Shown one piece after another: positions 1,734-20,242 of a stretch of DNA of 64,000 bases. Each line of letters opens with the position of its first letter. The stretch's first letter is position 1. Position numbers and translations under genes: made by a program. Source of the stretch: a virus. Under the pieces are notes generated by a model. The model saw only the letters and a program-made list of their open reading frames with translations. It was not told the DNA's origin and did no database searches. The stretch is taken from positions 19,589 through 83,588 of IMG/VR virus record IMGVR_UViG_3300042946_001661, one strand, 5' to 3'.

Positions 1734-1815
1734 CACAAGAGATAGGACTCGAACCTATAGTTGCTTTTGGCGGAAGATTAACAATCTTCTGGGTCTACCA
1801 TTCCCCCACTCTTGT
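1734..1815 (-). tRNA. tRNA with anticodon GUU (Asn), long variable arm
   Basis: The minus strand folds as a full cloverleaf: acceptor ACAAGAG/CTCTTGT, D arm GGG...CCC with GG in the loop, anticodon stem GAAGA/TCTTC with loop TTGTTAA (anticodon GTT), and T arm ATAGG-TTCGAGT-CCTAT. The discriminator is G, as in bacterial tRNA-Asn, and CCA is not encoded. The variable region is about 14 bases (CGCCAAAAGCAACT), a class II size unusual for Asn and more like bacterial tRNA-Tyr. It lies downstream of the IF-3 gene on the same strand. Confidence 0.85.
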
Positions 1816-1888
1816 GTGATTGTAAACTATTAATACTTTCAAAAGCGTCTGAATTTAAAGCTCAAAAAAGCCTGGAAATTTATTTAAA

Positions 1889-2164
1889 TCACTTAGCTCT
1901 ATATTCTCCCCAGACTGCTTCCCATTCATCTGTTTTGGGCATTAACATAGCATCTATGTCAACTTTATCTGGATCTATGCCTGGTCCGTATGGGCTTGGT
2001 GAGTATTCCTTTTGTAGTTTTTTGATCATAGCATCTGCTATGTTGTCGTAATGATTTTGAATTGCAAGATTTATAATCTTATTTGAAAACATCAATGTAA
2101 AAAATATCAAAAAACTAAGAATCAATATAACCCAAACTAATTTTTTATCTAATAAGTCTTTCAT
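1889..2164 (-). CDS. Small membrane-anchored protein
   Basis: 91 residues. Residues 9-31 (LVWVILILSFLIFFTLMF) form one membrane helix, preceded by charged residues, so the C-terminal 60 residues are probably periplasmic. The C-terminal part contains SPYGPGIDPDKVDIDAM, a Pro/Gly/Asp-rich stretch I cannot assign. The start at 2164 has a good ribosome site (AAGGAG 7 bases upstream). It follows the IF-3 gene by 32 bases and is probably in the same transcript. Function unknown. Confidence 0.7.
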   Translation of the reverse strand: MKDLLDKKLVWVILILSFLIFFTLMFSNKIINLAIQNHYDNIADAMIKKLQKEYSPSPYGPGIDPDKVDIDAMLMPKTDEWEAVWGEYRAK

Positions 2165-2196
2165 TTTTTCTCCTTAATAATATTATAGTAGAATGT

Positions 2197-2754
2197 TTAG
2201 TTTTTAGGACAAAGTTTACAAATTATTTGATTTGAGGTAATAAATGGTTTTTTCTCAATTAAAAAAATATCTTCTCCAAGTTTATCTATAAACTTGTTCA
2301 TCAACTCAAATCCTTTTTCTTTATTTGATAATTCTCTATTTGATTTAAATTTTAAAGTTATTTGTAGTTTTTTACCATTTTTTAAAAATTCTTTAGCATG
2401 ATTTATTTTTGTGTTTAAATCGTGTTCTTCTATGCATGATTTAAATCTTATTTCTTTTGATTCTAGTGCTTTTGAATTTTTTTTCTTATCTTTTTCTTTT
2501 ATTTTTTCTTGATATGAGTACTTTTGATAGTCTAGAATATGGCAGACAGGGGGTTTTGCATTAGGTACAATTTCAACTAAATCTAAGCTTTTTTCTTGAG
2601 CAACACGAACAGCAGAATCAAGGCTCATAACTCCAAGTTGCTGTCCCTCAAAAATTACCCTTATAGGGCTGATTTTAATAGCATAATTGATTCTATGCTT
2701 AGGAAGAGGTTTGTTGGAAGAAAACCCAAATTTATTTCTGTACTTGTAACTCAT
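2197..2754 (-). CDS. infC: Translation initiation factor IF-3
   Basis: 185 residues, close to bacterial IF-3, with both domains. The N-domain (about 20-90) contains INYAIKISPIRVIFEGQQLG, LDLVEIVPNAKPPVCHILDY, then the Lys-rich linker. The C-domain (about 103-185) contains KEIRFKSCIEEHDLNTKI and FLKNGKKLQITLKFKSNRE. IF-3 binds the 30S subunit, keeps it apart from 50S, and checks the start codon and initiator tRNA. A phage copy could redirect host ribosomes. There is a TATAAT box about 30 bases upstream of the ATG, and the start is preceded only by A/T bases, without a Shine-Dalgarno sequence. A tRNA and a bS21 gene lie within 3.5 kb on the same strand. Confidence 0.93.
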   Translation of the reverse strand: MSYKYRNKFGFSSNKPLPKHRINYAIKISPIRVIFEGQQLGVMSLDSAVRVAQEKSLDLVEIVPNAKPPVCHILDYQKYSYQEKIKEKDKKKNSKALESKEIRFKSCIEEHDLNTKINHAKEFLKNGKKLQITLKFKSNRELSNKEKGFELMNKFIDKLGEDIFLIEKKPFITSNQIICKLCPKN

Positions 2755-2799
2755 TTATAATAATAAAAGTGTGTTGTTAAAATTATTATAGAGTAAAAG

Positions 2800-3435
2800 C
2801 TAGTAAGTTTCAAGGTTGTTATCCAAAATATTGATAAATATTCCTTCTTTCTCTTCAGGATATTTTCTACTAGAGATGATCTCATCATCTTCGTTTTTTT
2901 CTATAACTTTAAATTCAAGATAATACTCTCCTGGAACCCGTGTGTCATCCAAGAACCAATTGTAAACCAAATAGCTTTCTACTAAAACGTTTTGTTCGAC
3001 CGTTCCATTTAGCTTTATAACATCTTCACGAACTAAGTCGTAAGTCGCACTAGAGTTCATTATTTTTATAATTTTTATATTAGTTCCTTTTTTCCAACTA
3101 GCCGGCGTAGTGCTGAAATAACCTCTAGTTACCATAATGCTGTTGTTTATTATTGTGGAAACCTGCATTAATTCATGATTGGTGCTATTTTTAAACAGAA
3201 TAATATCATCTGGAACAACGGAGCTAAGACCTACGTTATCTGCTAGAAGTATTTCAAACTCACTATCGTCTATATCTTTTTTAAGCTTTGCGTCCGCCCA
3301 CATACTGGCTGTTATTTCTTTACCTGTTAAGTCTATTGGGCTCATATCACAATCATATATTTTAAGCCTAACAGAGGGTTGTGTGCTATTTCTTTTTATA
3401 ATGAAATCATATTCATATTTTTTGCAGTTTGCCAT
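2800..3435 (-). CDS. Probable virion protein, baseplate/tail-fibre type
   Basis: 211 residues, beta-rich. The N-terminal part (RNSTQPSVRLKIYDCD, then DLTGKEITASMWA) and the late GEYYLEFKV look like the immunoglobulin-like N-domain found in phage upper-baseplate proteins, where a linear-polarisation domain is followed by a YYLEF strand. That family link is by pattern only. A TATATATT box lies immediately upstream of the ATG with no Shine-Dalgarno sequence, as at other virion genes here. Confidence 0.55.
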   Translation of the reverse strand: MANCKKYEYDFIIKRNSTQPSVRLKIYDCDMSPIDLTGKEITASMWADAKLKKDIDDSEFEILLADNVGLSSVVPDDIILFKNSTNHELMQVSTIINNSIMVTRGYFSTTPASWKKGTNIKIIKIMNSSATYDLVREDVIKLNGTVEQNVLVESYLVYNWFLDDTRVPGEYYLEFKVIEKNEDDEIISSRKYPEEKEGIFINILDNNLETY

Positions 3436-3449
3436 AATAATATATATTA

Positions 3450-3794
3450 TTATCTATTAACATTTATTTTTCTAATATCTCCAGATATTTTAATCTTACC
3501 AGATTCTAGTTCGGCAAGCATTTCTAAATTTATATTTTTCTTATAAAGAGAATGTAGGAATATCAAATCTTTATATTTTTTTTCAAGTTGCTTGAGCCAC
3601 CTGTTTTGACAACACAAACCTGTGTGGTCTACAAAATTTTTATATTCACCAAAAAATATAAAATATCTTAAAAAACACCTTTGAATTTTTCCTTTAAAGT
3701 ATTTTAAAAGAAACTTTTTATCTTTAGGTATTTCTAAGAATAAAAATCTCATTCCTATAAACAAACAATCATGATCCAAAATAAATTCCCTCAC
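3450..3794 (-). CDS. Hypothetical protein
   Basis: About 114 residues if it begins at the GTG at 3794, overlapping the upstream gene by 26 bases; an ATG at 3752 would avoid the overlap and leave 100 residues. It is rich in aromatic and basic residues in the first half (KKFLLKYFKGKIQRCFLRYF) and has a CCQNRW segment. No recognised domain. Confidence 0.5.
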   Translation of the reverse strand: MREFILDHDCLFIGMRFLFLEIPKDKKFLLKYFKGKIQRCFLRYFIFFGEYKNFVDHTGLCCQNRWLKQLEKKYKDLIFLHSLYKKNINLEMLAELESGKIKISGDIRKINVNR

Positions 3795-4269
3795 AAAACT
3801 CTAAACACAAAATCATCATTCCGCCTGCAAACTGTTGTGGAACCCCAGCTTTGTATAAACTTTTTAATGTTTCATTAACCATTTTAATCTCTTTTGTTAC
3901 ATCTCCGTCTTTTTTTGCTTTATTTATATCTTCTTGAGTTATAACAATGCATTTTTCAAGAGCTTCATATGCTTTTTGAACACCTAATATTATATTAGTA
4001 TTTACAACTGTATAAATTTTATCTTTATTAAATAAACTAGATTTATCTATATTTGTATTAGGATGTGCAGATTTTTCTTCAAAAAATAATTTTATATAGT
4101 ATTCTGCCAGTCCCATAGCATCTTTTCTAAAATCATCAATAGATGATATTTCTATATTTTTTAGCAAATTAATTGCTATTAGTTCTTCTGGTTCGTCTTC
4201 TATTTCATCAAAATCATCAAAATCATCATAATAATCATCTTCGTATTTTTCCATAATTTGTTTTTTCAT
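3769..4269 (-). CDS. Hypothetical protein with acidic N-terminus
   Basis: 166 residues. Residues 8-30 are almost entirely Asp, Glu and Tyr (YEDDYYDDFDDFDEIEDEPE); the remainder is helical with a hydrophobic C-terminal segment (QQFAGGMMILCLEF) that may pack in a core rather than span a membrane. The start at 4269 has AAGGAGC at normal spacing. It is divergent from the candidate spanin gene at 4299. Function unknown. Confidence 0.65.
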   Translation of the reverse strand: MKKQIMEKYEDDYYDDFDDFDEIEDEPEELIAINLLKNIEISSIDDFRKDAMGLAEYYIKLFFEEKSAHPNTNIDKSSLFNKDKIYTVVNTNIILGVQKAYEALEKCIVITQEDINKAKKDGDVTKEIKMVNETLKSLYKAGVPQQFAGGMMILCLEFCEGIYFGS

Positions 4270-4298
4270 TTTTGAAATGCTCCTTAATACATAACTGT

Positions 4299-4760
4299 AT
4301 GTTTAAAAAATTCTTTTTGGTTTTTTTGTTTTTAACTTTATTTTCTGGTTGTGGTGGAAATCTAAGTCCACGAAACAAACAGAATATAAATAATCCTAAC
4401 GGAGATGTTCAGAATAATCAACAAGGGTTTTTGTTGGAATTAGGAAAAATGAGACAAGAAGTCGACATTATAGGAAGCAGATTAAGAGAAGTCCAAGAAG
4501 GTTTGATTAACATAAATTCTGCTATCTCTAGGAATGAAAATTCAGGAATTCAAATTCTACAAGGAGACGGGGCTCTTTTTCTTGTGTTTAGTTGTGTTGC
4601 TCTTGTTTTTATTTTCTATTACAAAAATAGAGAGAACGAAAAACTTCTTAAAACAGTTACAAACAAAATTGCTGAGATTAATGATGAAAATCTAACAAAC
4701 AAAGTAATAGATTCTGTCGAGCCTGCTCAAGCAAGAAAACTTATTAAGATGTTAAAATAG
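4299..4760 (+). CDS. Candidate unimolecular spanin (lipoprotein with C-terminal TM)
   Basis: 153 residues from the ATG at 4299. An N-terminal lipoprotein signal ends in LTLFSGC (lipobox, Cys18), followed by a polar linker, a predicted coiled coil (about 45-80: LLELGKMRQEVDIIGSRLRE), a membrane helix at about 91-108 (ALFLVFSCVALVFIFYY) and a 45-residue charged tail. An outer-membrane lipid anchor plus an inner-membrane helix in one chain is the architecture of u-spanins such as phage T1 gp11, which fuse the two membranes in the last step of lysis. The assignment rests on architecture, not sequence similarity; another membrane-tethered lipoprotein is possible. Confidence 0.5.
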   Translation: MFKKFFLVFLFLTLFSGCGGNLSPRNKQNINNPNGDVQNNQQGFLLELGKMRQEVDIIGSRLREVQEGLININSAISRNENSGIQILQGDGALFLVFSCVALVFIFYYKNRENEKLLKTVTNKIAEINDENLTNKVIDSVEPAQARKLIKMLK

Positions 4761-4774
4761 GCGGCGTCTGGAAT

Positions 4775-4948
4775 TTATTCTGAGGGTTTATTTCTTCTTT
4801 GCAATTCTTTTTTTAGTAGAGACGTTAATCCAGGTTCATTAACTATTTCCATTTCTGGCTTAACTTCTTTGAAGATTGATTCTACTTCTTCTGTGGGTAA
4901 TCCAGCTCTCTTGCTGACTTCTTCTAAATCTTCTTTGGACATTTTCAT
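4775..4948 (-). CDS. Small acidic helical protein
   Basis: 57 residues from the ATG at 4948, which follows a very strong AGGAGG ribosome site; a GTG at 4960 in frame overlaps that site and is less likely. The sequence has the pattern of two or three short helices (SKEDLEEVSKRAGLPTEEV). It is convergent with the candidate spanin gene, 14 bases away. Not recognised. Confidence 0.6.
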   Translation of the reverse strand: MKMSKEDLEEVSKRAGLPTEEVESIFKEVKPEMEIVNEPGLTSLLKKELQRRNKPSE

Positions 4949-4979
4949 TTTGAGCCTCACCTCCTGGGGTCACTCGACT

Positions 4980-5213
4980 CTATCTCAGATAAAAGCCTTC
5001 ACAGTTATCTGCAGTTGGAAGACACAACCTATCCGGTTCTATTTTATTTTTTTCACAAAAATGAAAAAAATCTTTAACTTCTTGGTCTATTAATTGTTTT
5101 TTTAAAGTTTTTTTTAAACAATAATAATTATTATTGTTCTCGCCCAAATATCTGCATGTTTTTGAGTTGTGTCCAGCCAAACAAACTTCATCTATTTGTT
5201 TTTTTGTTAACAT
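4980..5213 (-). CDS. Small Cys-rich protein
   Basis: 77 residues with six Cys (VCLAGHNSKTCRYL, YYCLKK, HFCEKN, LCLPTADNCEGF). The spacing suggests a compact metal-binding or disulphide-bonded unit, but no named family fits. It lies 55 bases downstream of the bS21 gene on the same strand. Function unknown. Confidence 0.6.
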   Translation of the reverse strand: MLTKKQIDEVCLAGHNSKTCRYLGENNNNYYCLKKTLKKQLIDQEVKDFFHFCEKNKIEPDRLCLPTADNCEGFYLR

Positions 5214-5268
5214 TTTTAATAGTCTTATTTGATGAAGCGAATTTTATCAAGGCGTAAGAATTTGTCAA

Positions 5269-5499
5269 TCAAAAATTTTCAGGTTTTGAATTTTTCTTTC
5301 TTATTAAATTCATCTCTTTTTTCTTTCTTCTTCTTTTTTCTCCAGGACTTTCATAAAATTCTCTTTTTTTAACTTCCTGAAGAACTCCGCTATCTGATAT
5401 TACTTTCTTAAAAATATTCAAACCTCTTTTGAACAAATCTTCCTTTTCTCTTTGAGAAAGATTGTGATGACCATCTTCTTTTAATATTCTAATTTTCAT
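5269..5499 (-). CDS. rpsU: Ribosomal protein bS21 homolog
   Basis: 76 residues. Residues about 28-62 match the bS21 core: FKKVISDSGVLQEVKKREFY followed by ESPGEKRRRKKKE, against the bacterial pattern FKR-x(4)-GVL-x-E-x-RRREFYEKP-x(3)-R-x-(K/R)-rich. bS21 sits on the 30S platform near the anti-Shine-Dalgarno end of 16S rRNA and affects mRNA recruitment. Phage-encoded bS21 is known in large and marine phages and is thought to replace the host copy on ribosomes. The start has AGAAGGAG at good spacing. It follows the GT-B-like pair by 27 bases on the same strand. Confidence 0.88.
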   Translation of the reverse strand: MKIRILKEDGHHNLSQREKEDLFKRGLNIFKKVISDSGVLQEVKKREFYESPGEKRRRKKKEMNLIRKKNSKPENF

Positions 5500-7797: not shown

Positions 7798-8325
7798 TCA
7801 TTTAGGTTCCGGTGTGAATCTTAGTGCACCTATCTGATCGCTAATTTTGTCAATCATAGATGCTACTTTTCCCATCTCTTTTTTAATAGAGTCTAATTCT
7901 TTTTCTTTAACACCCATCGCATGTTTAGATAAAAATTGAACCTCTAAGTCGTATAGTTTTTTCTTCAATTCATTAAGTTTATCTAAACTTTCACCTTCAG
8001 TCCAATCGTCTGTTGGTTTATTTTTTGCATCTCTACCCAAATTTGAATAATCTACTGGGTTGCTACTTTTTGCTACCTTAGATGTTTTATTTTCATTTAA
8101 TAGTTGAGCTTCTGAATAATTTGCAATATCATTCCAATAAGAGACACCATCTTGTTCTGGATCTAATTCTGAATCTTTGATATTAATCTGTCCGAAGAAA
8201 TTAGATTTTCCGTCCTCTATTTCTTTGGGTTTTAGGTCAGACTTTGGAAATAAACCATCTTTTAATGCTTTATCCCATTGTTGTGTCCACTTATCGAACT
8301 GATCTTCCATGTTATTGTTGCTCAT
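7798..8325 (-). CDS. Probable virion-associated protein, unknown
   Basis: 175 residues, hydrophilic, with a Trp-rich N-terminus (FDKWTQQWDKALKDGLFP) and a C-terminal coiled-coil-like segment (DKLNELKKKLYDLEVQFL ... IDKISDQIGAL). The ATG is preceded by GTATATATAATTATT with no Shine-Dalgarno sequence, the arrangement seen before virion-type genes here. Function not recognised. Confidence 0.55.
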   Translation of the reverse strand: MSNNNMEDQFDKWTQQWDKALKDGLFPKSDLKPKEIEDGKSNFFGQINIKDSELDPEQDGVSYWNDIANYSEAQLLNENKTSKVAKSSNPVDYSNLGRDAKNKPTDDWTEGESLDKLNELKKKLYDLEVQFLSKHAMGVKEKELDSIKKEMGKVASMIDKISDQIGALRFTPEPK

Positions 8326-8330
8326 AATAA

Positions 8331-8340
8331 TTATATATAC
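8331..8340 (-). promoter_or_regulatory. TATATATA late-type box
   Basis: On the minus strand this reads GTATATATAA and ends a few bases before the ATG at 8325. No ribosome site fits between box and start, so the mRNA leader would be very short if this is a -10 element. Confidence 0.4.
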
Positions 8341-8354: not shown

Positions 8355-8792
8355 TTAGCAACCTAAAACTATTCTTAATGTTAAGCTAATCGCTTGTAAA
8401 CTTGAAATTAATACAGGATTTGGGAATTTATAATACCATATTACAGAATCAGAATTATTAACAATATAATATCCATATATTGTACTTTCTACAATATCGC
8501 TGCATCCCCAGACCAGAACTTCATCGTAATAAGAAACAACATCCCCTGATTCTACTGTTGCTGCACTCCAGTTATTCTTATCCAGTTCTTTAGAGGAATA
8601 TCCATCAAAAGTACATTCGGTAAACGACAAATTGTTTTCATTCAAGTTGTTCTTAAACAACTTTATCACATAATCATTACAAGAAAGTAGGCTGTCTAAA
8701 TAGTCCGGCTTTGAACTTGGAACAGGCTGTGCGACTCCTAATATTGGCGTTGGCGTTGGAGTTGGAGTTGGAGTTGGGGTTGGAGTTGACAT
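8355..8792 (-). CDS. Probable virion protein with Thr-Pro repeat N-terminus
   Basis: 145 residues. Residues 3-16 are seven Thr-Pro repeats, encoded by a GGAGTT/GGCGTT DNA repeat, followed by a Pro/Ser linker and a roughly 100-residue beta-rich domain (VESGDVVSYYDEVLVWGC, STIYGYYIVNNSDSVIWYY). A flexible (TP)n stalk plus a small beta domain is common in phage decoration or fibre-like proteins. An exact TATAAATA box lies 6 bases upstream of the ATG. The exact virion role is unknown. Confidence 0.55.
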   Translation of the reverse strand: MSTPTPTPTPTPTPTPILGVAQPVPSSKPDYLDSLLSCNDYVIKLFKNNLNENNLSFTECTFDGYSSKELDKNNWSAATVESGDVVSYYDEVLVWGCSDIVESTIYGYYIVNNSDSVIWYYKFPNPVLISSLQAISLTLRIVLGC

Positions 8793-8798: not shown

Positions 8799-8806
8799 TA
8801 TTTATA
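8799..8806 (-). promoter_or_regulatory. TATAAATA box, T4-late-promoter type
   Basis: The minus strand reads TATAAATA, identical to the T4 late promoter consensus recognised by gp55-type sigma. It is followed by AACTAT and then the ATG of the Thr-Pro repeat protein. Confidence 0.55.
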
Positions 8807-9254
8807 CATTTTCAATAATTTTAGATTTTATTAAAATGTTTTTTTCTTTATCTACAAGATCTTCAGAGTTATATGTTTTTAGAGTTGACCAATGAGGGTC
8901 ATCTTTTGGAATATATTCTTTTTTAGTATAATAAAAAAATTCTGCTATGTATTCGTATTCTTTATTTTCAACTTCATCAACACTCATACCTGAAAGGCGA
9001 TCATGCAAAATTTCTTTTAATACTTTTACCGAATCAATCCATCTGGCTTTTGCCATCTTTTGAATAATAGCAAGAGCTGAATACGCATTGTTTTCTAATG
9101 CATTTATTACATCTTTTTTAAGATCTCCTGGTCCGAATTTTGCTTTTGTTGTATAACATGCAATTACTTCATCTTTGCTAGGTTTATATTTTAAAGAAAC
9201 ATCTTTGAAGTATTCTGAAAAATTACTTTCATCAATTATCAACTCTTTGCTCAT
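8802..9254 (-). CDS. Hypothetical protein downstream of dnaE C-part
   Basis: 150 residues, no membrane or Cys features; the middle is helical (NALENNAYSALAIIQKMAKA). It overlaps the 3' end of the polymerase C-terminal gene by 23 bases and has an AAAAGG ribosome site, so it is probably coupled to it. No known family recognised; a role with the polymerase is only a positional guess. Confidence 0.6.
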   Translation of the reverse strand: MSKELIIDESNFSEYFKDVSLKYKPSKDEVIACYTTKAKFGPGDLKKDVINALENNAYSALAIIQKMAKARWIDSVKVLKEILHDRLSGMSVDEVENKEYEYIAEFFYYTKKEYIPKDDPHWSTLKTYNSEDLVDKEKNILIKSKIIENV

Positions 9255-10929
9255 CTTTTTCCTTTTTTCTAAGAACTACTATTCTGTAGTCGTCTTCTTT
9301 ATTAACAGTACTTTTTTTGAAAAAATTTCTTGGTCCAGTGCTAGCTATTGTGTATGTCTTGAAGCCTTTGCTTGGGGCACTTAATCTTACTCTAAGCAAA
9401 CTTCCAGGAACTAATTCATTTTGAAAATTAGCATAATCATCTTTCCATACATTTATAAGACCTTCATCACAATTACAATCTTCTGCTTTTACCTGATAGT
9501 ATTCTGCCTTTTTACCTTTCTTTTTACTACAAGATATTACCTCTATTTCCACAGGAAGAGTATCTCCAGAATCAGGCTCTAGTGTGTCGAAGGTTAATCC
9601 TCCCCTATAATCCGGACTGTCCTTTACATTACTGTGCCAAGCAAATCCATAATACTTCTTTTCACAGGCTACTAAATCATCAAATTCTTTTTTCAAGTTT
9701 TTATCAATTTTAGAATCATCAATAACAAAACCTTCTAGTCTAGGTTTCTCCAAATCTTCTTTATCTTCATATCTTTTTTTGGCAGTCTGTATCTTGTTAA
9801 TCATTTTACATATGTTTTTCCAAGCATCTTTGTTATTAATAATAAGTTTTAAATATCTCTTTTTCCAATCATCACATGATTTACTGCCAATTTTCAAAGA
9901 ATCTAAATCAATATAGTCTATCTCCCCACTAACTACTTTATTTTTAATAAAATCAGTATTCTCTGCCTCCTTGATCATTGAATAAAGAATCTCTTTATTT
10001 TTTTTTGCTGTATTTGCATACCTTTTTTTTCTATCTTGATTTTTCTTTATATAATCTTTATATTTTTCAGAGAACATAAAAAGAGTGTAAGGATCCGAAT
10101 CGGAGAAGCACCTAAGAGAAAGTAATGGCTTTAATACACTAGAATCTGTTCCGAATCTTTCAACAAAATCTTCAAAGTTTTTATATGGCTGTCTCTTTAC
10201 TATTTCTTTTGCTATAGGCTCTCCTATTCCTTTTATATTAGAAAAACCAAAATAAATATCATCTCCTATAAGGCTGAAGTTTTCTTTAGACAAATTAATA
10301 TCAACAGGCTTTAAATCTATTTTATGCTTAGTTATTTCTTTTCTATATTCTTTAATTTTATCGGCATCATTTTCACATGTTAAAATTGCAGTATAAAACT
10401 CATGAGGAAAATGAGACTTTAAATATAAAAGTCTTGAACTAATATGAGTATAACATACTGCATGACTTTTATTGAAGCCATATTCTGCAAAACTTTCAAT
10501 AAGTTTCCATAAATTTTCTAATTCTTCTTCAGAAGAATCCAAGTTCTTTTTTCCATTATTAATAAATGTTTCTTTGTATTTAATAAACTGTTCTACTTTT
10601 TTCTTACTAATAGCCTTTCTTACAGCTTCAACATCTCTCATTGGAATATTTCCAACCATGTTCAATATTTTCATTACTTGTTCTTGGTATACAATTACCC
10701 CATAAGTATCTTTTAATATTTCGTTTAAAATAGGATGTAATTTATATTCTTCTCTGCCTCTTTTTCTTTCTATGAATCTTTCATGCATTTTACAGTTATG
10801 AACAACAATATCTTGAGCAATAAAATTAGGCTCATCGATATAAAGATCATCTTCAATGATTAAAGAAATATCATAACATTCATCTTCGTCAACTTTTTCT
10901 ATAGAAATTATTTCATCATAATCAATCAT
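9232..10929 (-). CDS. dnaE: DnaE polymerase C-terminal part with split-intein C-half
   Basis: 565 residues. Residues 1-45 are a C-intein ending DIVVHN, followed by Cys46 as the +1 nucleophile. The next 520 residues are the C-part of a family-C DNA polymerase: FIERKRGREEYKLHP, GVIVYQEQVMKI, AVRKAISKKK, FAEYGFNKSHAVCYTH, LKSHFPHEFYTA, a helix-hairpin-helix (FSNIKGIGEPIAKEIVKR) and a C-terminal OB-like region (VEIEVISCSKKKGKKAEYYQ). It must be joined to the product of 11974-13287 by trans-splicing to give RPGPLN-CKMHERF, matching the uninterrupted DnaE pattern RPGP(L/M)-x(3)-M-x(3)-F/Y-I-x-RK. It overlaps the endonuclease gene by 8 bases. Confidence 0.92.
   Translation of the reverse strand: MIDYDEIISIEKVDEDECYDISLIIEDDLYIDEPNFIAQDIVVHNCKMHERFIERKRGREEYKLHPILNEILKDTYGVIVYQEQVMKILNMVGNIPMRDVEAVRKAISKKKVEQFIKYKETFINNGKKNLDSSEEELENLWKLIESFAEYGFNKSHAVCYTHISSRLLYLKSHFPHEFYTAILTCENDADKIKEYRKEITKHKIDLKPVDINLSKENFSLIGDDIYFGFSNIKGIGEPIAKEIVKRQPYKNFEDFVERFGTDSSVLKPLLSLRCFSDSDPYTLFMFSEKYKDYIKKNQDRKKRYANTAKKNKEILYSMIKEAENTDFIKNKVVSGEIDYIDLDSLKIGSKSCDDWKKRYLKLIINNKDAWKNICKMINKIQTAKKRYEDKEDLEKPRLEGFVIDDSKIDKNLKKEFDDLVACEKKYYGFAWHSNVKDSPDYRGGLTFDTLEPDSGDTLPVEIEVISCSKKKGKKAEYYQVKAEDCNCDEGLINVWKDDYANFQNELVPGSLLRVRLSAPSKGFKTYTIASTGPRNFFKKSTVNKEDDYRIVVLRKKEKDEQRVDN
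10795..10929 (-). other. Split intein, C-terminal half
   Basis: 45 residues encoded. Visible features are the block-F-like ECYDISLIIEDDLYI segment and the terminal block G IVVHN, with the catalytic His-Asn pair, immediately followed by Cys. This is enough for asparagine cyclisation and ligation if paired with its N-half. The length of the C-half is in the normal range for split inteins with a natural break near the endonuclease position. Confidence 0.9.
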
Positions 10930-11935
10930 TTTTTATACTTTCAAAAAAATTAATAACCCTTTTGTCGTTGCGAAACTTTTTTCTACTCATGTTACAATCA
11001 TTGAACTGCCAGTAATGAAAAAGAAAATTATTTTCTATCGCATAACTTTCACCAGCCTTTAATTTTGCTTCAGATTTTTCGGCATCAATTTGATAAACAT
11101 ATCCTGATTTTAACTCTACTAAAAATTTTTCATTAATTAAAAAATCCGGAAAATATTTTTTATTTTTGCCGCAATAATTATAAGCAATACAACAAGGTGT
11201 TGCAAACCAAGATTTAACATATGGGGAATCATCTAGTAGTTCGGAGAGCCATAATTCAAGTCTCGATCTAAGAAAAAAATCACAATTCATTTTTTTTGAA
11301 TAGAATGACTTGCCTGTGCTACTAAATACATAGTCAGGATGAACTTTTCGATAATTATTATTACAGTCTTTAGAGCAAAATTTAATTTTAGGTCTTGGCT
11401 TTCCTCCAACCCATATAATAATTTGTTTATCACAAAATGCACAATTACTATATTTGGCTTTGCCTTTAGCCAAAGGGTATAATCTCTGGTAGTCTTCGGG
11501 TGTCCGCTTTTCTCTCAATTGTTTAAGCTTTTCATTCCCGGCAGATGTGAAAGCAAATAATAATTTTTTTCTTTCTTCGGGAGAAACAGATTTAACCTTA
11601 CTAACCCAAGCGTCTGACGCCATTTTAACAACTTTTTTTCTAGTCTCTGGTTTGAGGATATCTCCTTTTTCATATGCTTTTTTCATACGCTCAGATCTAT
11701 TTTTTTTAACATGTGCTTGATTGCTATAATCTTTGACTTTTTTAGCAATTGAAAATACAGTCTCATTAGATTCTTTGGTTTCACCTTTATTCCAAACATC
11801 GGGTATTTGATTTTTATATTCTTCTGTTTGCTCGGGAAACATTTGCAAATACTTCGTTTTTTTAATTTTATGAGACGAGTTTAAATGTCTGTAAAATTTG
11901 TCTGAAATTTCTCTATTGCATAATTTACATATCAT
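10922..11935 (-). CDS. Vsr-like/PD-(D/E)XK homing endonuclease inside the fractured dnaE
   Basis: 337 residues. An N-terminal C2H2-like finger (ICKLCNREISDKFYRHLNSSH) and a basic DNA-binding middle are followed by a Cys4 cluster (CAFCDKQ, FCSKDCNNN). The C-terminal nuclease domain has SRLELWLSELLDD, then YFPDFLI and FLVELKSGY, the D...E-x-K signature of a Vsr-like fold, followed by KAGESYAIENNFLFHYWQ. Free-standing endonucleases of this type are known between the halves of split-intein genes (fractured genes, Dassa and co-workers). The gene sits 38 bases after the N-intein stop and overlaps the C-intein start by 8 bases. It probably spreads the insertion by cutting uninterrupted dnaE. Confidence 0.82.
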   Translation of the reverse strand: MICKLCNREISDKFYRHLNSSHKIKKTKYLQMFPEQTEEYKNQIPDVWNKGETKESNETVFSIAKKVKDYSNQAHVKKNRSERMKKAYEKGDILKPETRKKVVKMASDAWVSKVKSVSPEERKKLLFAFTSAGNEKLKQLREKRTPEDYQRLYPLAKGKAKYSNCAFCDKQIIIWVGGKPRPKIKFCSKDCNNNYRKVHPDYVFSSTGKSFYSKKMNCDFFLRSRLELWLSELLDDSPYVKSWFATPCCIAYNYCGKNKKYFPDFLINEKFLVELKSGYVYQIDAEKSEAKLKAGESYAIENNFLFHYWQFNDCNMSRKKFRNDKRVINFFESIKND

Positions 11936-11973
11936 TGTAGCCTCCAGGACTATTCAATAATATGTAGGAGATT

Positions 11974-13287
11974 TTATTTTAATTTTTTAGCAATTTTTTG
12001 CCCAACAGATAATTTTTCGGCTTCAATAAATTCATCTTTATCGGTAAGGATTTTATGTTCATTTGAACACAAAATTACTTTTCCAGATTTAGTTTTAATT
12101 TTTAATAATTTTTTATAACCAGTTTTTATTAAAATAAATTTTTCAGTATATTTAATTTTCTTTTTTTTACTTAAATAGGCAATTTTATCTAACCCAGGCT
12201 TCAAATCTTTTATTTTTTTATATCCAAGATTTGTATTAACTTTTACATCTTTTTGAAGACAATTCAAAGGACCTGGACGATATAATGATGAGTAGGCAAC
12301 AAGATCTTCAAATCTTGTAACACCACCAGCTTTAGCTAATGATCTAATACCTGGGCTATCAAACTGAAAGATACATTTAAGGTCTCCTTCATTAGCCATT
12401 TCTAGGGATTTTAAATCATTCCTATACTCATCTATGTTGCTCCAATTGCCTTGACCAGGAAATGCACATATTTTATCAATACCTTTTCTATCTTTTATAA
12501 GCTTACAACACTTTGCAATCTGAAGAAGATTACTGATCACAAGCAAATCAAATTTAACAAGTCCTACTGGCTGTAGATCTTGTCCATGAAGACCTTCTAC
12601 CCAAGCACTTGCCTGAGGGCTATCTTTTCTTTTTATAAGAGGAACAAGATCGGTTAAAGGAATAGAGCTTACAATCAAACCTCCAGCATGTATACCTGTC
12701 CCTCTGTTTCTATTAATTAGTTTTTGAGCAGCCTTTGCTATATCTGGGTGTTCTTCGCAGTATTTCTTAAGCATAGGATCAGTTTTCATAGCTGAATCCC
12801 ATGTGAGAACTTTTCCTTCATCATCTTTTGTTTGAAGATTTGTTGTTAAAGCGAGTATTTCTCCTCTTTCTTCTCCGTGAACTCTAACCATATCGATAAG
12901 AGAGGATTTAATACCAAAAGTAGTATAGTTTCCTATATTACAGACATATTGCTCTCCAAATGTTTTAGGAGCCCATTCATTCTTTAAAAAATCACGAACA
13001 GCAGGAATAAAATCCACATCGATATCCGGAGAATCACCTTGTACATAATTTGGATCTTTTTCTATATCAAAATTTGGTACTATTTCTAGTAGCCAACACA
13101 CCAAAAGATTATTTTCATTATCTGGATAATTTACATTTCTGGTCACCATATCTAGAAAGTAATTTTCCTTATTTTGAGAAATTATCTCTTGTTTTTCCCA
13201 TTCTAATCTTTTTTGATATCTTTTATCTTCATACAATCCTTTTTCTTTTAATTTTTCTTCACAAATTTTAAATATGTTTGATTTCAT
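11974..13287 (-). CDS. dnaE: DnaE polymerase central (catalytic) part with split-intein N-half
   Basis: 437 residues. Residues 1-342 are the N-extein with the polymerase active site: GDSPDIDVDF (first two catalytic Asp) near 85-94, and VGLVKFDLLVISNL (third Asp) near 248. Other family motifs are GIHAGGLIVS, CIFQFDSPGI and VAYSSLYRPGPLN. Residues 343-437 are the N-intein starting CLQKDVKV. The first 80 residues contain a second copy of a segment (RYQKRLEWEKQEI ... NYFLDMVTRN) that also appears near the end of the PHP-part gene, and lack the GPGRGSAGGSL motif, which is only in that other gene. No Shine-Dalgarno sequence; TATATAATATAG lies upstream. Confidence 0.92.
   Translation of the reverse strand: MKSNIFKICEEKLKEKGLYEDKRYQKRLEWEKQEIISQNKENYFLDMVTRNVNYPDNENNLLVCWLLEIVPNFDIEKDPNYVQGDSPDIDVDFIPAVRDFLKNEWAPKTFGEQYVCNIGNYTTFGIKSSLIDMVRVHGEERGEILALTTNLQTKDDEGKVLTWDSAMKTDPMLKKYCEEHPDIAKAAQKLINRNRGTGIHAGGLIVSSIPLTDLVPLIKRKDSPQASAWVEGLHGQDLQPVGLVKFDLLVISNLLQIAKCCKLIKDRKGIDKICAFPGQGNWSNIDEYRNDLKSLEMANEGDLKCIFQFDSPGIRSLAKAGGVTRFEDLVAYSSLYRPGPLNCLQKDVKVNTNLGYKKIKDLKPGLDKIAYLSKKKKIKYTEKFILIKTGYKKLLKIKTKSGKVILCSNEHKILTDKDEFIEAEKLSVGQKIAKKLK
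11977..12261 (-). other. Split intein, N-terminal half
   Basis: 95 residues. It begins at Cys1 (block A, CLQKDVKVNTNLGYKKIKDL) directly after RPGPLN, and has a block B SNEHKILTDKDEFIEA with the conserved His in the N/T-x-x-H position. It ends IAKKLK at the stop. Block A and B spacing is normal, so thioester formation should work. The insertion point in the conserved RPGP loop of DnaE differs from the cyanobacterial split DnaE intein site. Confidence 0.9.
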
Positions 13288-13346
13288 AAAAATATTTTTA
13301 TTACTCTATATTATATATAGATTATCTACTCACATCAAGGACATAT

Positions 13347-14441
13347 ATGAAAAAATCAATGAAAAAAGCAATTCTTATTTACAAAGAAGGAAAATCAATA
13401 GAAAAGTCCGCAGCTGAAGCGGAAGTATCTTTTCAAGGACTTCAATATCAACTTAAAAAACTTGGTTTAACAAGAAGTGCCGAAGAAGCCGCTCACAAGA
13501 GCTATACATCAGAGAGTTTAAAAGAAGCATTGAGTCTTTACGAAAATGGAAAAAGTTTAAATGAAGTTAATAAAATAACAAAGGTTTCTCTACACACATT
13601 GAGAAAAGAAATAAAAAGATTAAAAATATCAAAAAAGAAAATTATTAAATATGATCATATATTAGAAAAATCAATAGATTTATACTTATCAGGATTATCC
13701 ACCATAAAGGTAAAAAATATAACTGGTATAGGGCTTGGCAAGTTAACAAAAAATCTTAAAAAAAGAGGGCTTATTCGTAGTAATAAAATAAATTCAAGAA
13801 AATATCATGTAAATTATGATTTTTTTAAAAATATAGATAATGAACACAAAGCGTATTGGCTTGGTTTTATTTATGCTGACGGTTACATTAGCCGAATAAA
13901 TAAAAATAAAAAAATTGGAATATCATTAAACATAAAAGATATGGATCATCTAGAGGTTTTTAAAAAACAAATTAATGCTACATATCCAATAAATATTTAT
14001 AAGTCGAAGTCTTTTGGAGGAGTAGAAATAGAATATTGCAGACTACTTATTACTTCAGATCAATTGTTTGATGATTTAATTGACAAAGGAGTTTTCGAAA
14101 AAAAGACATTAATATTAAAATTTCCAAATGAATCTATAGTTCCAAAAAACTTACAACATCATTTTATAAGAGGATATTTTGATGGTGATGGATCTTTCAA
14201 AAAAAGTAATGGTAAATATTATGTTTTTAATCTATGTGGTACAAAAGAATTTCTACTAAAATGTCAAGAAATACTTCATAAAAATACAAAACTAGAAAAA
14301 AGGCACAAGGATAATAAAAACAACTATAGTTTTTCGATAGGAGGCAGATTACAAGCCAAAAAAATAGGTGATTACTTATACAAGAATGCTACTGTATACT
14401 TAGAAAGAAAATATAACAGATATAAAGAAATGTGTTTTTAA
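13347..14441 (+). CDS. LAGLIDADG homing endonuclease
   Basis: 364 residues. Residues 1-150 hold three repeats of a short helix-turn-helix-like module (for example AAEAEVSFQGLQYQLKKLGL, VNKITKVSLHTLRKEIKRL, VKNITGIGLGKLTKNLKKRG), probably for DNA binding. Two LAGLIDADG motifs follow: YWLGFIYADGYI and HFIRGYFDGDGSF, each with the acidic catalytic residue. The SD is AAGGAC. It is divergent from the dnaE central part (59 bases) and lies in the gap that separates that gene from the PHP part, so it may have caused or exploited that break. The gene is intact. Confidence 0.88.
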   Translation: MKKSMKKAILIYKEGKSIEKSAAEAEVSFQGLQYQLKKLGLTRSAEEAAHKSYTSESLKEALSLYENGKSLNEVNKITKVSLHTLRKEIKRLKISKKKIIKYDHILEKSIDLYLSGLSTIKVKNITGIGLGKLTKNLKKRGLIRSNKINSRKYHVNYDFFKNIDNEHKAYWLGFIYADGYISRINKNKKIGISLNIKDMDHLEVFKKQINATYPINIYKSKSFGGVEIEYCRLLITSDQLFDDLIDKGVFEKKTLILKFPNESIVPKNLQHHFIRGYFDGDGSFKKSNGKYYVFNLCGTKEFLLKCQEILHKNTKLEKRHKDNKNNYSFSIGGRLQAKKIGDYLYKNATVYLERKYNRYKEMCF

Positions 14442-14465
14442 TTAAATAAAATTTTAGTACAGATG

Positions 14466-14473
14466 TATAAATA
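14466..14473 (+). promoter_or_regulatory. TATAAATA box, T4-late-promoter type
   Basis: Exact TATAAATA followed by TAATCAAAGGAG and the ATG of the PspC-domain gene at 14490. Here the leader is long enough to carry a Shine-Dalgarno sequence. Confidence 0.55.
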
Positions 14474-14489
14474 TAATCAAAGGAGTAAA

Positions 14490-14663
14490 ATGAAAGTAGA
14501 CAAGAAAAACGCCATGATTGGCGGAGTCTGTGCTGGTTTGTCGGATTCAACTGGGATACCGACTGCGGTTTTTAGGCTTGCTTTTCTATTTGCATTTTTA
14601 CTTGCTGGGATGGGTCCTATAATTTATATCATTTTATGGATCATGATGCAAACAAAAGAATAA
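14490..14663 (+). CDS. PspC-domain small membrane protein
   Basis: 57 residues from the ATG at 14490, which follows AAAGGAG. The sequence reads KKNAMIGGVCAGLSDSTGIP then AVFRLAFLFAFLLAGMGPII and IYIILWIMM, the compact pattern of the PspC domain (GGVCAGLA-x-D-x-x-G-x-x-x-x-x-V-R). In bacteria PspC is an inner-membrane part of the phage-shock envelope-stress response. A phage copy could block or mimic that response, or protect the membrane before lysis; this is inference. It precedes the acidic repeat gene by 10 bases. Confidence 0.8.
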   Translation: MKVDKKNAMIGGVCAGLSDSTGIPTAVFRLAFLFAFLLAGMGPIIYIILWIMMQTKE

Positions 14664-14673
14664 TGGAGAAAAA

Positions 14674-15621
14674 ATGCCTTTCAAAAAATTTAATGAATTC
14701 TTAAACGAACAAAAGAAAAATAAGAAGACTAAAAAAAGTGATAAAAAGGCATTAGGAATTAGTGGCGATAAGTCTCTTGTTTATAAACCAAAAGTTCATA
14801 AATATGATAAAATTAAAGACAAGGGACTCGGAAATATTGGAGATGAAAAAAACATCTACGAACCAGACACAGGTCCAGAGCTACAGAAAAAAGCTCCAGA
14901 ATGGCATAAAACAAACATTAAAGAATGGTTAAACAAAACAAAAAAATTATCTGTTTCTGAATTTGCAAAAAAAATTCAAGAAGAAAAAAGTGTAAAAGTA
15001 AATATTAATAAAATAAAAAATGCTGAAGATCTTATTGGCAATTTTGTAGAAACATTAAAAAGCAATCCAAAATTAATAGAGGTTGCATCAAGAGAGTTTA
15101 ACAGATCCGGATTACTTGAAGGTTTTATTGTAGAGCTCAGTAAAATAAAAAGATCAAAAAGAATACACGAATCAATTAGTGAGCCTGTTGGGTTTGAAGA
15201 CGAAGAAGGCATGGAAGGCATGGAAGATGAAGAAGGCATGGAAGGCATGGAAGATGAAGAAGGCATGGAAGATGAAGAAGGCATGGAAGATGAAGAAGGC
15301 ATGGAAGACGAAGAAGGCATGGAAGACGAAGAAGGCATGGAAGACGAAGAAGGCATGGAAGACGAAGAAGGCATGGAAGACGAAGAAGGCATGGAAGACG
15401 AAGAAGAAGGTTATAGACGCCATCGTCATCGTCACCATCATCATGACGAAGAAGATGATGAGTTTGGGGACGAAGAAATGGAAGATGAAGATGATAGCGA
15501 AAATTTAGATAGCGATGATCTTGAGGATCATGGTTATAATAAAAACCAAGATATGGAAGATGATTCGCCCCTAGGGAGAAGATCTGGCATGCGTAGGGAT
15601 TATTTTTCAGACGAAATTTAA
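14674..15621 (+). CDS. Acidic repeat protein with capsid-targeting-like N-terminus
   Basis: 315 residues. N-terminus MPFKKFNEFLNEQKK resembles the T4 internal-protein targeting peptide (MKTYQEFIAE), with a possible cleavage after Glu. Residues 1-170 are basic and helical. Residues about 175-246 hold about ten DEEGME repeats; then HRHRHHHHDEEDDE and a further Asp/Glu-rich tail. The SD is GGAG. A basic head plus very acidic tail with a targeting peptide suggests a prohead-core or internal capsid protein, comparable to T4 gp67, but this is by composition only. Confidence 0.65.
   Translation: MPFKKFNEFLNEQKKNKKTKKSDKKALGISGDKSLVYKPKVHKYDKIKDKGLGNIGDEKNIYEPDTGPELQKKAPEWHKTNIKEWLNKTKKLSVSEFAKKIQEEKSVKVNINKIKNAEDLIGNFVETLKSNPKLIEVASREFNRSGLLEGFIVELSKIKRSKRIHESISEPVGFEDEEGMEGMEDEEGMEGMEDEEGMEDEEGMEDEEGMEDEEGMEDEEGMEDEEGMEDEEGMEDEEGMEDEEEGYRRHRHRHHHHDEEDDEFGDEEMEDEDDSENLDSDDLEDHGYNKNQDMEDDSPLGRRSGMRRDYFSDEI
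15199..15411 (+). repeat. 18-bp tandem coding repeat (DEEGME)
   Basis: About ten units of GAYGAAGAAGGCATGGAA in frame; the first two carry an extra GGCATGGAA. Units 2-5 use GAT for Asp, and unit 1 and units 6-10 use GAC, so the array appears to have expanded in blocks. It creates long artificial open frames on both strands. Confidence 0.9.
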
Positions 15622-15655
15622 AAAATAAACAATTAACAATTAACAATTATAATTT

Positions 15656-15835
15656 ATGAAAAGTTTTAAACAATTCAAAGAAGAAAAAGAAAAAGAAGAA
15701 CTAAAAAATAATGATAGGGTAGCAAAAGCTATAAAAATGGGAAATGCCGCGGGCAGTCTTCCACTTAGCTCTCATAAAGAACGAAACGAACGAAGAAAAG
15801 ACAACATCCCGTCGAAGTACTACAAAGGAAAGTGA
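15656..15835 (+). CDS. Small basic internal-protein candidate
   Basis: 59 residues, missed by a 60-residue cut-off. It begins MKSFKQFKEEKEKEELKNN, close to the capsid-targeting-like motif of other genes here, and ends with a Lys/Arg-rich tail (HKERNERRKDNIPSKYYKGK). Three AACAATT repeats and TATAATTT lie directly upstream of the ATG and no Shine-Dalgarno sequence is present. It lies between the acidic repeat gene and the convergent PHP gene. Probably a small packaged protein. Confidence 0.6.
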   Translation: MKSFKQFKEEKEKEELKNNDRVAKAIKMGNAAGSLPLSSHKERNERRKDNIPSKYYKGK

Positions 15836-15849
15836 AATAATTTACTAAA

Positions 15850-17223
15850 TTAATCCTTAAATTCTAAAATCATACTTCTCCCACCTCTAGATTCTGAAAG
15901 AAATCTAGAGAATAGTAAGTCTTCTTTTATAGGATCAACATCCGTTATTCCTAGACAGTAGCATACGAGAGAACCTCCAGCACTCCCTCGACCCGGTCCT
16001 ACTGCATCGCTTCCATCGCCCCATCCTAATATTTCAGGACAAACTCGTCGGGCTTCATCTGTCATCATTTTTTGAATAAGAAAATAACTACTAAATCCTT
16101 TTCTCTTGATTAATGATATCTCTTCTTTTATTCTTGAAGAATATACTTTTGTTTTTGGTAAATTTCTTTTATTAAAACCTTGTACGACCAAATCTCTTAA
16201 TTTGTCATCAGAATTTTCAATATTAGGCAGCTTTAAACTTCTATCGAAGGTCACACCTTTTGCCATTTCGCATATTTTAACTGTATTCTTTTTAGCTTCT
16301 TGAAACAATTCATATGGAATAATATCTTTGTAATCACTTAACCATTTTTCATTAAGCTCTTCTTCACTCTTCATCCAAAGATTAGCATCTTGAAGCTCAA
16401 AAAAATCAACCATTGCATCTTTTTGTTTTGCTTCTTCTATCTCCTTTAAAGTTCTATTTGTTTGAATCATCAACATTAATCTTTGATAATGACTATCTTC
16501 TTTTTTGCAATAATGAACATCACAACTTACGATCAAAGGTAATTTATATCTTTCATGACACTTGATTATAAAAGCGTCATAAGCAAACTGTTTTTTAAAG
16601 TCTAGTAGCATTAATTCTAAATAATAATGCTCTCTACCAAACATTTCCAAATGCTTTTCAAGCATTTGGAATCCAGCTTCTTCTCCACCCTTGTCAAAAG
16701 CTCTACCTATCTCGCTATTATAGCAACAGCTTGTAAAAATAAGACCTTCTCTATGCTTTTTTAATTGTTCGTAATTGACTCTAGGCTTTCTATAGAAGCC
16801 TTTAGTCCAACCCCAACTAGTTAAACGTACTAAATTTTTATAGCCCTCTAAATTGTACGCTATAGCCAGCAAGTGAGGACTAGCTTTAAAAACATCCATC
16901 TCATCTGGAGATAATTCTTTTGTAAAATCTTGAAGATCCTCAAGACCAGAACTTTCTGGTTGTAATGAATTTATATATAATTCTGAAGCAAATATTGGGG
17001 ATAATTTATTTTTATCTTTATGTTTATCACATATCTTATCGCATATTTTAATTTGTCTGGGTACAGCTCCTAACATTCCGTGATCTGAAACTGTTAAGAA
17101 TTTTTGATTAATTTCAACGGCGCGATTACCTGCTTCCTCAACGGTTTGAAAACCATCAAGCAAAGAATAGTCTGTATGGAGGTGAAGATGTTCAAATCCA
17201 ACAATTTCTACCTTATCTTTCAT
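15850..17223 (-). CDS. dnaE: DnaE polymerase N-terminal part: PHP domain and start of palm
   Basis: 457 residues from the ATG at 17223, which overlaps the stop of the gene before it (ATGA); an ATG at 17238 is also in frame. The PHP domain starts FEHLHLHTDYSLLDGFQTVE with metal-binding His residues, then TVSDHGMLGA and ASELYI. The protein runs to the palm motif AVGPGRGSAGGSLVCYCLGI and ends shortly after LLFSRFLSESRGGR with the tail SMILEFKD, just where the catalytic PDIDVDF should follow. That motif is in the gene at 11974-13287. No intein is seen at this break, so the parts would have to associate without splicing. Confidence 0.9.
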   Translation of the reverse strand: MKDKVEIVGFEHLHLHTDYSLLDGFQTVEEAGNRAVEINQKFLTVSDHGMLGAVPRQIKICDKICDKHKDKNKLSPIFASELYINSLQPESSGLEDLQDFTKELSPDEMDVFKASPHLLAIAYNLEGYKNLVRLTSWGWTKGFYRKPRVNYEQLKKHREGLIFTSCCYNSEIGRAFDKGGEEAGFQMLEKHLEMFGREHYYLELMLLDFKKQFAYDAFIIKCHERYKLPLIVSCDVHYCKKEDSHYQRLMLMIQTNRTLKEIEEAKQKDAMVDFFELQDANLWMKSEEELNEKWLSDYKDIIPYELFQEAKKNTVKICEMAKGVTFDRSLKLPNIENSDDKLRDLVVQGFNKRNLPKTKVYSSRIKEEISLIKRKGFSSYFLIQKMMTDEARRVCPEILGWGDGSDAVGPGRGSAGGSLVCYCLGITDVDPIKEDLLFSRFLSESRGGRSMILEFKD

Positions 17224-17405
17224 GCAACAACTTTCCATTCTTTACCAGTAAAAATGTATAACACGTTAAGATTATTGTTAAAATAAAGATCCCCAACTTT
17301 TAAATTTTTTGGAGGTAATCCTACATACACCCCACTATACTGTTTTTTCGAAGTTTTATTTATAAAAGATTCAAATAATTTATTTTTTTCTTTTTTTATA
17401 GCCAT
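17220..17405 (-). CDS. Small phage protein, unknown
   Basis: 61 residues from the ATG at 17405; a longer frame exists but without a better start. The C-terminal part KVGDLYFNNNLNVLYIFTGK followed by EWKVVA is a beta-hairpin pattern found in small virion-associated repeats (G-D-L-x-x-N-x-x-x-x-x-L-Y-x-x-x-G-x-x-W). The stop overlaps the start of the PHP gene. Function unknown. Confidence 0.6.
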   Translation of the reverse strand: MAIKKEKNKLFESFINKTSKKQYSGVYVGLPPKNLKVGDLYFNNNLNVLYIFTGKEWKVVA

Positions 17406-19064: not shown

Positions 19065-19702
19065 AATGGAAAAAAGTTTGGATTGGTAAAAAAAACATTA
19101 ATTTCATTGAAATTAGAAACATCTATTGGCTCCCAAGTTTCTGGTCTTGGTCCCCAATCACTCGGTGCCATTTTTTCTATAATAAACCCTTTGTCAAACA
19201 TCCATTTTTTAACATCTTCAAGAGTATATTGATCTTTGTATAAGGTATTATTTTTGTAGTTTACAGTCTCCAAGACACCAGCTTTAACAATTTTATAAAA
19301 ATTATTGAGACCAATTAAAACATTTAAATCATGACCTTGTGCATCACAATGAAGCCAATCTATTCTTTTTATATTATTTTCAATTATAAAGTTTTCTAGG
19401 GTTATTACATCTACCTCTATTTTATCTATATTATCTAATTTAACATTATTCCAATTATTTTTTTCATTAATATCTGACAGAGAACTACAATCTTCAGATT
19501 TTAAAATATTAAATGAATGTCTCCCAGAAAAATCACTTACTGCTTTACATGTTAAAGTATAATTAGGCAAATTTTTTATTTTTGAATTAATTATATTACA
19601 AAATCCTGGGTGTGGTTCAAAAGCAAAAACAAAATCGCCATTCATGGCTCTCCATATAGAATCTTCCCCATCATTTGCACCTATATCAAATACTATATTC
19701 AT
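19061..19702 (-). CDS. FkbM-family methyltransferase
   Basis: About 213 residues from the ATG at 19702, 6 bases after the upstream stop. It starts MNIVFDIGANDGEDSIWRA, followed by FVFAFEPHPGF, then VDVITLENFIIENNIKRIDW, HCDAQGHDLNVLIGL and a C-terminal WGPRPETWEP. The order DxGAnxG, EP-x-P, L-x-x-L/F, D-x-x-G-x-E/D is the FkbM pattern. These enzymes methylate hydroxyls of sugars or polyketides. Likely co-expressed with the next methyltransferase gene. Confidence 0.85.
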   Translation of the reverse strand: MNIVFDIGANDGEDSIWRAMNGDFVFAFEPHPGFCNIINSKIKNLPNYTLTCKAVSDFSGRHSFNILKSEDCSSLSDINEKNNWNNVKLDNIDKIEVDVITLENFIIENNIKRIDWLHCDAQGHDLNVLIGLNNFYKIVKAGVLETVNYKNNTLYKDQYTLEDVKKWMFDKGFIIEKMAPSDWGPRPETWEPIDVSNFNEINVFFTNPNFFPL

Positions 19703-19707
19703 ATTAA

Positions 19708-19971
19708 TTAAATTTGATCTTCGCCCAACTTCTGTGTACTGGCTTGGGATTTTTTCCATTGCTCAAATTCTTCATAGATACTCTTAGCTTGATTATCAAG
19801 CTGTTTTAGTTCTTGTTGAGTTTTTTCATAAACTTGCTTAAAAGCTTCTTTTTTCTTTTTCTTTTCAGTATGTATTTCTGCAATTTTTTCAGAAAATTCT
19901 TGAAAATTATCAGTCAAAAGAAATTCTAGTTGCTTGTCAACTTCATCTTTCTTCTTTGGAAGATCTGTCAT
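19708..19971 (-). CDS. Small coiled-coil protein
   Basis: 87 residues, nearly all charged and helical (KKKKKEAFKQVYEKTQQELK), predicted coiled coil over about residues 25-75. The start at 19971 has CAGGAG at good spacing. Downstream of the gene at 19994 on the same strand. Function unknown. Confidence 0.65.
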   Translation of the reverse strand: MTDLPKKKDEVDKQLEFLLTDNFQEFSEKIAEIHTEKKKKKEAFKQVYEKTQQELKQLDNQAKSIYEEFEQWKKSQASTQKLGEDQI

Positions 19972-19993
19972 AGCCTACTCCTGAGTATAGTTG

Positions 19994-20242
19994 TTAGAAA
20001 ATAAAAATTCTACGAACATTAGAATTGTTTATATCATTTATTTTTGGAATCTTCAATGATATATTCATTACTTTGTCTGTTATATCTAATCCAGAATCAA
20101 CTAGTTTTAGTTTGTAAAATATTTTTAATTCATCATCAGACAACATTGACATTAAATCTCCAAACGTTTTATCTTCAGTCCATGTTTCTACTACTTTATT
20201 GTCAATACTATTAAATATATTTATTAAATTTTCAATTTTCAT
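19994..20242 (-). CDS. Small hypothetical protein
   Basis: 82 residues from the ATG at 20242, which starts 4 bases after the stop of the zinc-ribbon gene. A longer open frame upstream is an artefact because it overlaps that gene completely. Helical, with KTFGDLMSMLSDDELKIFYK; no recognised domain. Confidence 0.55.
   Translation of the reverse strand: MKIENLINIFNSIDNKVVETWTEDKTFGDLMSMLSDDELKIFYKLKLVDSGLDITDKVMNISLKIPKINDINNSNVRRIFIF

Follow-up and report, generated by a model that had tools for sequence, protein, structure and literature searches.

TATA boxes at start codons in a T4-related phage clade as probable late-type promoters of leaderless and Shine-Dalgarno-led messages

How are phage genes expressed that lack a Shine-Dalgarno (SD) sequence and have a TATA box directly before their ATG? 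The question is raised by a 64,000-nucleotide (nt) stretch of viral DNA, here called the window, comprising bases 19589–83588 of the 83,588-base virus record IMGVR_UViG_3300042946_001661 (G000 in our comparison set). It encodes a translation initiation factor IF-3 and a ribosomal protein bS21, and an earlier note on positions 1734–5499 had proposed that these proteins drive a switch, with SD-led translation early and SD-less translation late. We favor another account, to which we assign a probability of roughly 0.78: the boxes would be phage promoters working like T4 late promoters, giving leaderless messenger RNAs (mRNAs) where they lie near the start codon and SD-led mRNAs where they lie far from it. 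G000 falls in the T4 superfamily, far from its cultured members, with a split gp43-like polymerase and gp41-, gp32-, UvsX-, gp46/47-, NrdAB- and gp18-like proteins.

Two positions of one box before start codons

The main comparison set consisted of five records (G000, G002, G008, G011 and G012), extended later to seven by G016 and G017. Each gene was called from the first ATG of its open reading frame (ORF); where GTG or TTG came first, an ATG no more than 75 nt away was used instead, and promoters were ignored. TATATA-type and AAGGAG-type strings were top or near-top upstream k-mers in all five records; in G012, with 48.5% guanine plus cytosine (GC), TATATA was found upstream of 16 genes compared with 1.15 expected. 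Motif expectation maximization was applied to the five records, and control phages were scored by exact motif. The TATATATA-type box was scored as an exact 7-mer (ATATATA or TATATAT) and defined as near when ending 4–9 nt, and as far when ending 16–45 nt, before the start codon. T4's own TATAAATA was rejected as the main element; G000 has only one near TATAAATA.

The placement of the box is bimodal, with, over the five records together, 110 7-mer hits at 4–9 nt, 4 at 10–15 nt and 87 at 16–45 nt. Near hits number 33, 25, 22, 20 and 10 in G000, G002, G008, G011 and G012, far hits 22, 22, 18, 13 and 12, and the gap between them holds 1, 2, 1, 0 and 0, respectively. Because exact 7-mers overlook degenerate boxes, such as those upstream of the tail-tube and gp15 genes of G008, the near-box counts are low. 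Thirty-seven further loci, from which 446 genes were called and 274 retained after removal of duplicates and of genes common with the five records, yielded 29 near, 6 gap and 40 far hits, and the bimodal placement recurs in both later records. The same element is found in records spanning 30 to 48.5% GC. When upstream regions were rotated at random, the near count was reached in 0/1000 trials in each of the five records (for the 83.6-kb record, 14 of 116 genes versus a rotation mean of 3.3), and in 1/1000 and 13/1000 trials for G016 and G017. The class of SD-less genes with a TATA box before the ATG, described in the earlier note, thus exists beyond chance, although within positions 1734–5499 a correctly spaced box precedes a single gene (2800) of the nine called; good SDs stand there before genes 1889, 3769, 4775 and 5269 (bS21).

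The two classes differ in SD content. A match of at least 5 nt to the SD was found in 0/71 near-box genes and 39/65 far-box genes over the seven records (p = 5e-17), and in 193/727 others. Between -30 and -13, where 48/727 other genes have such a match, the near class again has 0/71.

Promoter-like marks and comparison with the T4 late system

Several marks of the boxes resemble those of promoters. The upstream neighbor is divergent for 46/70 near-box and 50/64 far-box genes, compared with 196/720 genes without a box. Past far boxes, G occupies +6 in 32/87 cases versus a 10.5% baseline (p = 7e-11) and A occupies +5 in 55%, a mark that falls where no start codon lies. Of 56 near cases, 48 have the A of the ATG 5–7 nt past the box, which equals the spacing of a T4 late promoter if transcription starts at the AUG. 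No conserved -35 was detected, no column exceeding 0.3 bits in the 20–45 nt upstream of the box end. A single TATA box one turn before the presumed start, without a -35, is the arrangement of the T4-type late promoter, whose box begins at -13 and which likewise has no -35 according to excerpts of PMC2988020; the same excerpts describe a variant late-promoter consensus in Aeh1. The clade consensus of TATATATA type differs from T4 TATAAATA in one base.

One box can also be common to two divergent genes in gaps of 11–21 bp: 18 and 19 bp in G000, 19 and 21 in G002, 11 and 18 in G011, and 17 in G012. The corresponding counts for divergent pairs at most 45 bp apart are 0/6 in T4 and 1/3 in Mosig. 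As the box is nearly palindromic and mostly lies between divergent genes, one box could fire both ways. Boxes are further distributed unevenly over gene functions: an exact box precedes 9/39 virion entries versus 0/35 replication entries (p = 0.0026, five records). The neck gene gp13 is boxed in 4/4 orthologs and the phrog_240 head protein in 5/5, and the tail-tube gene of G017 has a box. The gp13 box is near in G002 and G008, and far, with an SD, in G011 and G012.

We propose that the TATATATA-type box occupies the -10 place of a promoter lacking a -35 and is most likely read by a gp55-type sigma on the host RNA polymerase, with transcription starting 5–7 nt past the box. A near box would then give a leaderless or near-leaderless mRNA with a 5'-terminal AUG, and a far box an ordinary SD leader. 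Bidirectional firing would put +1 on an AUG in one direction or in both, and back-to-back genes fit gaps of 11–21 bp. The leaderless or near-leaderless transcripts predicted by the earlier note gain support from a promoter placed on the start codon, the transcription starts themselves being deduced. IF-3 and bS21 would not be needed for this layout, and any role of theirs would be separate.

A gp55-type sigma (phrog_234) was identified in 9/12 records (E 4.6e-8 to 3.9e-5), with homologs at 61971–62474 in G002, 22531–23031 in G008, 19538–20077 in G011 and 73754–74284 in G012 that keep NNK and domain-2-like blocks. A PDB search with these homologs gave three matches with E up to 10, including one sigma factor at 1.9. 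G000 ends before the position at which gp55 would be expected by synteny: in G002 the gene lies three genes past the point corresponding to the end of G000, and the adjoining G002 genes are ~75–98% identical to their G000 counterparts.

Known T4-like phages of 33–41% GC do not display the near peak. Near TATAAATA motifs number 0 in T4, 3 in Mosig (versus 12 far), 1 in Melnitz-1 and 0 in S-RIM8, and in T4, Melnitz-1 and S-RIM8 TATAAATA is kept at leader distance. LIS04, SagM-GXN1 and NCTB, which have related sheaths, yielded neither a near TATAAATA nor a gp55 family match. Among the known T4-like phages checked, few or none have the promoter-on-start-codon layout as more than a rarity. In marine T4-likes, WATAAATA boxes 4–9 nt before called starts could be rare leaderless cases (Mosig, L075–L077, genes 60990, 89375, 94129 and 106113; Melnitz-1, gene 60418).

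The boxes thus share with T4 late promoters a lone TATA box in the -10 position, the lack of a -35, a gp55-type sigma and a position on head and neck genes. They differ in the TATATATA-type consensus, the frequent placement at start codons and the box common to divergent genes. With the leaderless mRNAs of bacteria and archaea they share a promoter box ending ~6 nt before the ATG and the lack of an SD; unlike those, the layout here is phage-wide, uses a viral late-type promoter and coexists with SD-led genes that carry this box too, its 5' ends being predicted from sequence.

Weighing the explanations

A number of observations weigh against our account. All transcription starts are inferred from sequence. 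Similarity of the sigma candidates to gp55 is weak at the E-values given above, and the family search did not find gp55 in G000, G003, G004, G016 and G017. Whereas the T4 late system comprises gp55, gp33 and gp45, the T4-type C-terminal clamp-binding tail is absent from 4/4 gp55 homologs, and the gp33 family (phrog_254) was found in 0/12 and the gp45 family (phrog_223) in 0/6 records, where divergence could mask homologs. No exact box precedes the capsid, sheath, portal, protease and terminase genes, and a far box stands before one DNA polymerase piece (11974). The gap zone is less empty in G016 (20 near, 4 gap, 36 far). The SD contrast is partly built in, since a near box takes up the site of the SD; weak 4-nt SD matches persist in 8/71 near-box genes, and 26/65 far boxes lack an SD of at least 5 nt. 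Finally, counts pool orthologs and are not independent. Owing to the weak gp55 similarity, its lack of a match in G016 and G017, the undetected gp33 and gp45, the absent tail, and the capsid and other genes without an exact box, we claim that the element works in the manner of a T4 late promoter, not that its membership of that class is proven.

TATA strings are common in a 30% GC genome such as G000, yet chance occurrence is extremely improbable: it is refuted by the rotation null together with the TATATA excess in the 48.5% GC relative, and T4-likes of 33–41% GC lack the near peak. TATATA also resembles a -10 box, and with deduced starts the element could belong to host-type sigma promoters that fall on start codons by chance. 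This is unlikely, considering the lack of a conserved -35, the constancy of the element from 30 to 48.5% GC and the phage late-type sigma at hand. A/U-rich start regions favor SD-less initiation in general, so that the box might instead act in translation, as an unstructured stretch of A and U that lets ribosomes bind SD-less starts on longer transcripts; 12/70 near-box genes do lie less than 20 nt behind a same-strand gene, where a promoter would be unneeded. This reading is nevertheless quite unlikely: the same box recurs 16–45 nt upstream of SD-led genes with a gap between, is strongly biased to divergent junctions, is marked by G at +6 when far, and is retained by gp13 whether near or far.

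The switch model of the earlier note rests on the co-occurrence of IF-3, bS21, SD-less genes and an AUU start. Both proteins are indeed encoded in the window: IF-3 (185 amino acids (aa), 2197–2754, minus strand) matches IF3_N (5.5e-25), IF3_C (5.2e-21), phrog_9787 and IF-3 chains in the PDB, and bS21 (76 aa, 5269–5499, minus strand, SD GAAGGAG) matches phrog_21469, PF01165 over the cut-off and bS21 chains in the PDB. Each of the five records seen to have IF-3 (G000, G001, G008, G016 and G017) also has bS21, and in G000, G008 and G017 the IF-3 gene comes after one with a near box. In other phages bS21 is expressed with structural genes, and a bS21-driven preference for phage messages late in infection has been proposed, as stated in excerpts of PMC9723584. 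The model predicts SD-less late and SD-led early genes, but the SD counts run the opposite way, with a match of at least 5 nt in 17/39 virion and 7/35 replication genes (five records). In the window, SDs precede the genes for the tail sheath (53183, AGGGAG) and the tail tube (52565, AAGGAG); of the replication genes said to have ordinary SDs, SSB (46207) does and the DnaB-like helicase (41458) does not. Moreover, the box layout is no less evident in G002, G011 and G012, records that may be fragments and in which IF-3 and bS21 were not found, and IF-3 is listed as an inhibitor of leaderless translation, which low levels can help, in excerpts of PMC9031893. We consequently reject the switch as stated; such a switch driven by IF-3 and bS21 is very unlikely, and the argument that one cause explains all four facts fails in its present form. 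The genome resembles the bS21-encoding phages of PMC9723584 in having a phage bS21 gene, and differs from them, as far as those excerpts go, in that bS21 is unlinked to the leaderless layout, IF-3 is added and SDs are used.

The window, the AUU start and wider meaning

Ten window genes have an exact near 7-mer. Four have a minus-strand box of their own: 2800–3435 (box 3440–3447), 7798–8325 (8332–8339), 24054–24581 (24586–24594) and 57696–58229 (58235–58241). A palindromic box at 32450–32457 in an 18-bp gap is near for both 32068–32445 (minus) and 32464–32871 (plus), and a single box at 36043–36051 in a 19-bp gap is near for both 35784–36038 (minus) and 36058–36864 (plus). Two further boxes serve one gene near and the other far: 50199–50207, near for 49594–50193 (minus) and far for 50241–51320 (plus, SD AAGAGG), and 58694–58701, near for 58707–59273 (plus) and far for the head-protein gene 58259–58666 (minus). 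Gene 8355–8792 (minus) carries the T4 consensus TATAAATA at a near position (8799–8806, minus strand), ending at -7. Far boxes lie at 49338–49344 (plus; gene 49381–49587, SD AAAGGAG), at 63539–63551 (minus; gene 59522–63517, 1331 aa, SD AAGGA) and at 13312–13319, between a DNA polymerase piece (11974–13287, minus) and an endonuclease gene (13347–14441, plus). The gp43-like polymerase (window 9232–17238) is split into three genes, 15850–17238, 11974–13287 and 9232–10929, with the endonuclease gene and another ORF (10922–11935) between the pieces; in G008 a larger single piece of 875 aa replaces two of them. Two tail-tube-like genes stand next to each other (51859–52482 and 52565–53149), and a tRNA-Asn gene (1733–1815) lies beside the IF-3 region.

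The IF-3 gene itself lacks both an SD and a box at the proper spacing. It is the next gene on the strand after near-box gene 2800–3435, an order kept in G008 and G017, while in G016 the box is far; IF-3 may thus itself be made from a near-box message, to judge by gene order.

The AUU start noted earlier (20541–20543, minus strand, SD AGGTG) gains support. It opens a zinc-ribbon gene (20247–20543) with an in-frame stop just upstream and an N-terminus PIYEF.C..C, which we take to be of FmdB type. The start is common to G000 and G008 (near 69084, plus strand), both IF-3-bearing, and in-frame stops exclude other usual starts. The gene starts with ATG in three related contigs (14–43 kb), two of which (L148 and L149) look identical there, and IF-3 was not found in these three; a pattern search did not find the gene in G002, G011, G012, G016 and G017. 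Two AUU phages versus three ATG contigs are a very small sample, and an association of the AUU start with phage IF-3 may be taken as a lead only. IF-3 discriminates against AUU, as excerpts of PMC9410913 on infC autoregulation state. The likeness to infC is an AUU start in a genome making IF-3; the difference from the infC described there is that the AUU gene here is an FmdB-like zinc ribbon, known from its sequence. A broader scenario, speculative and rather unlikely as a whole, would have late promoter and start codon fused in this clade: a tailless gp55 would read the palindromic box and produce leaderless mRNAs in both directions, and phage IF-3, encoded behind such a box gene in the members that bear it, would tune which mRNAs are translated by holding down the AUU-started regulator and rebalancing leaderless against SD-led translation.

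Leaderless mRNAs and T4 late promoters are each already known. In the open-access literature we found no report of a T4-type promoter placed systematically on start codons, phiKZ-type late promoters lying outside the search, nor of one box serving two leaderless divergent genes. A host search with a sheath profile in bacterial genomes returned 78 pattern matches, none of which was confirmed.

If the proposed reading is true, a T4-related clade produces much of its box-driven mRNA in leaderless form by shifting one promoter element, and these messages stand beside SD-led ones from the same element. The gp13 genes, near-box in some members and far-box with an SD in others, would form a natural series on what is gained or lost by dropping the leader, and would also bear on how the ribosome, IF-3 and bS21 handle leaderless messages in infection. 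The box would further give a sequence rule for locating promoters and start codons in uncultivated T4-like phages.

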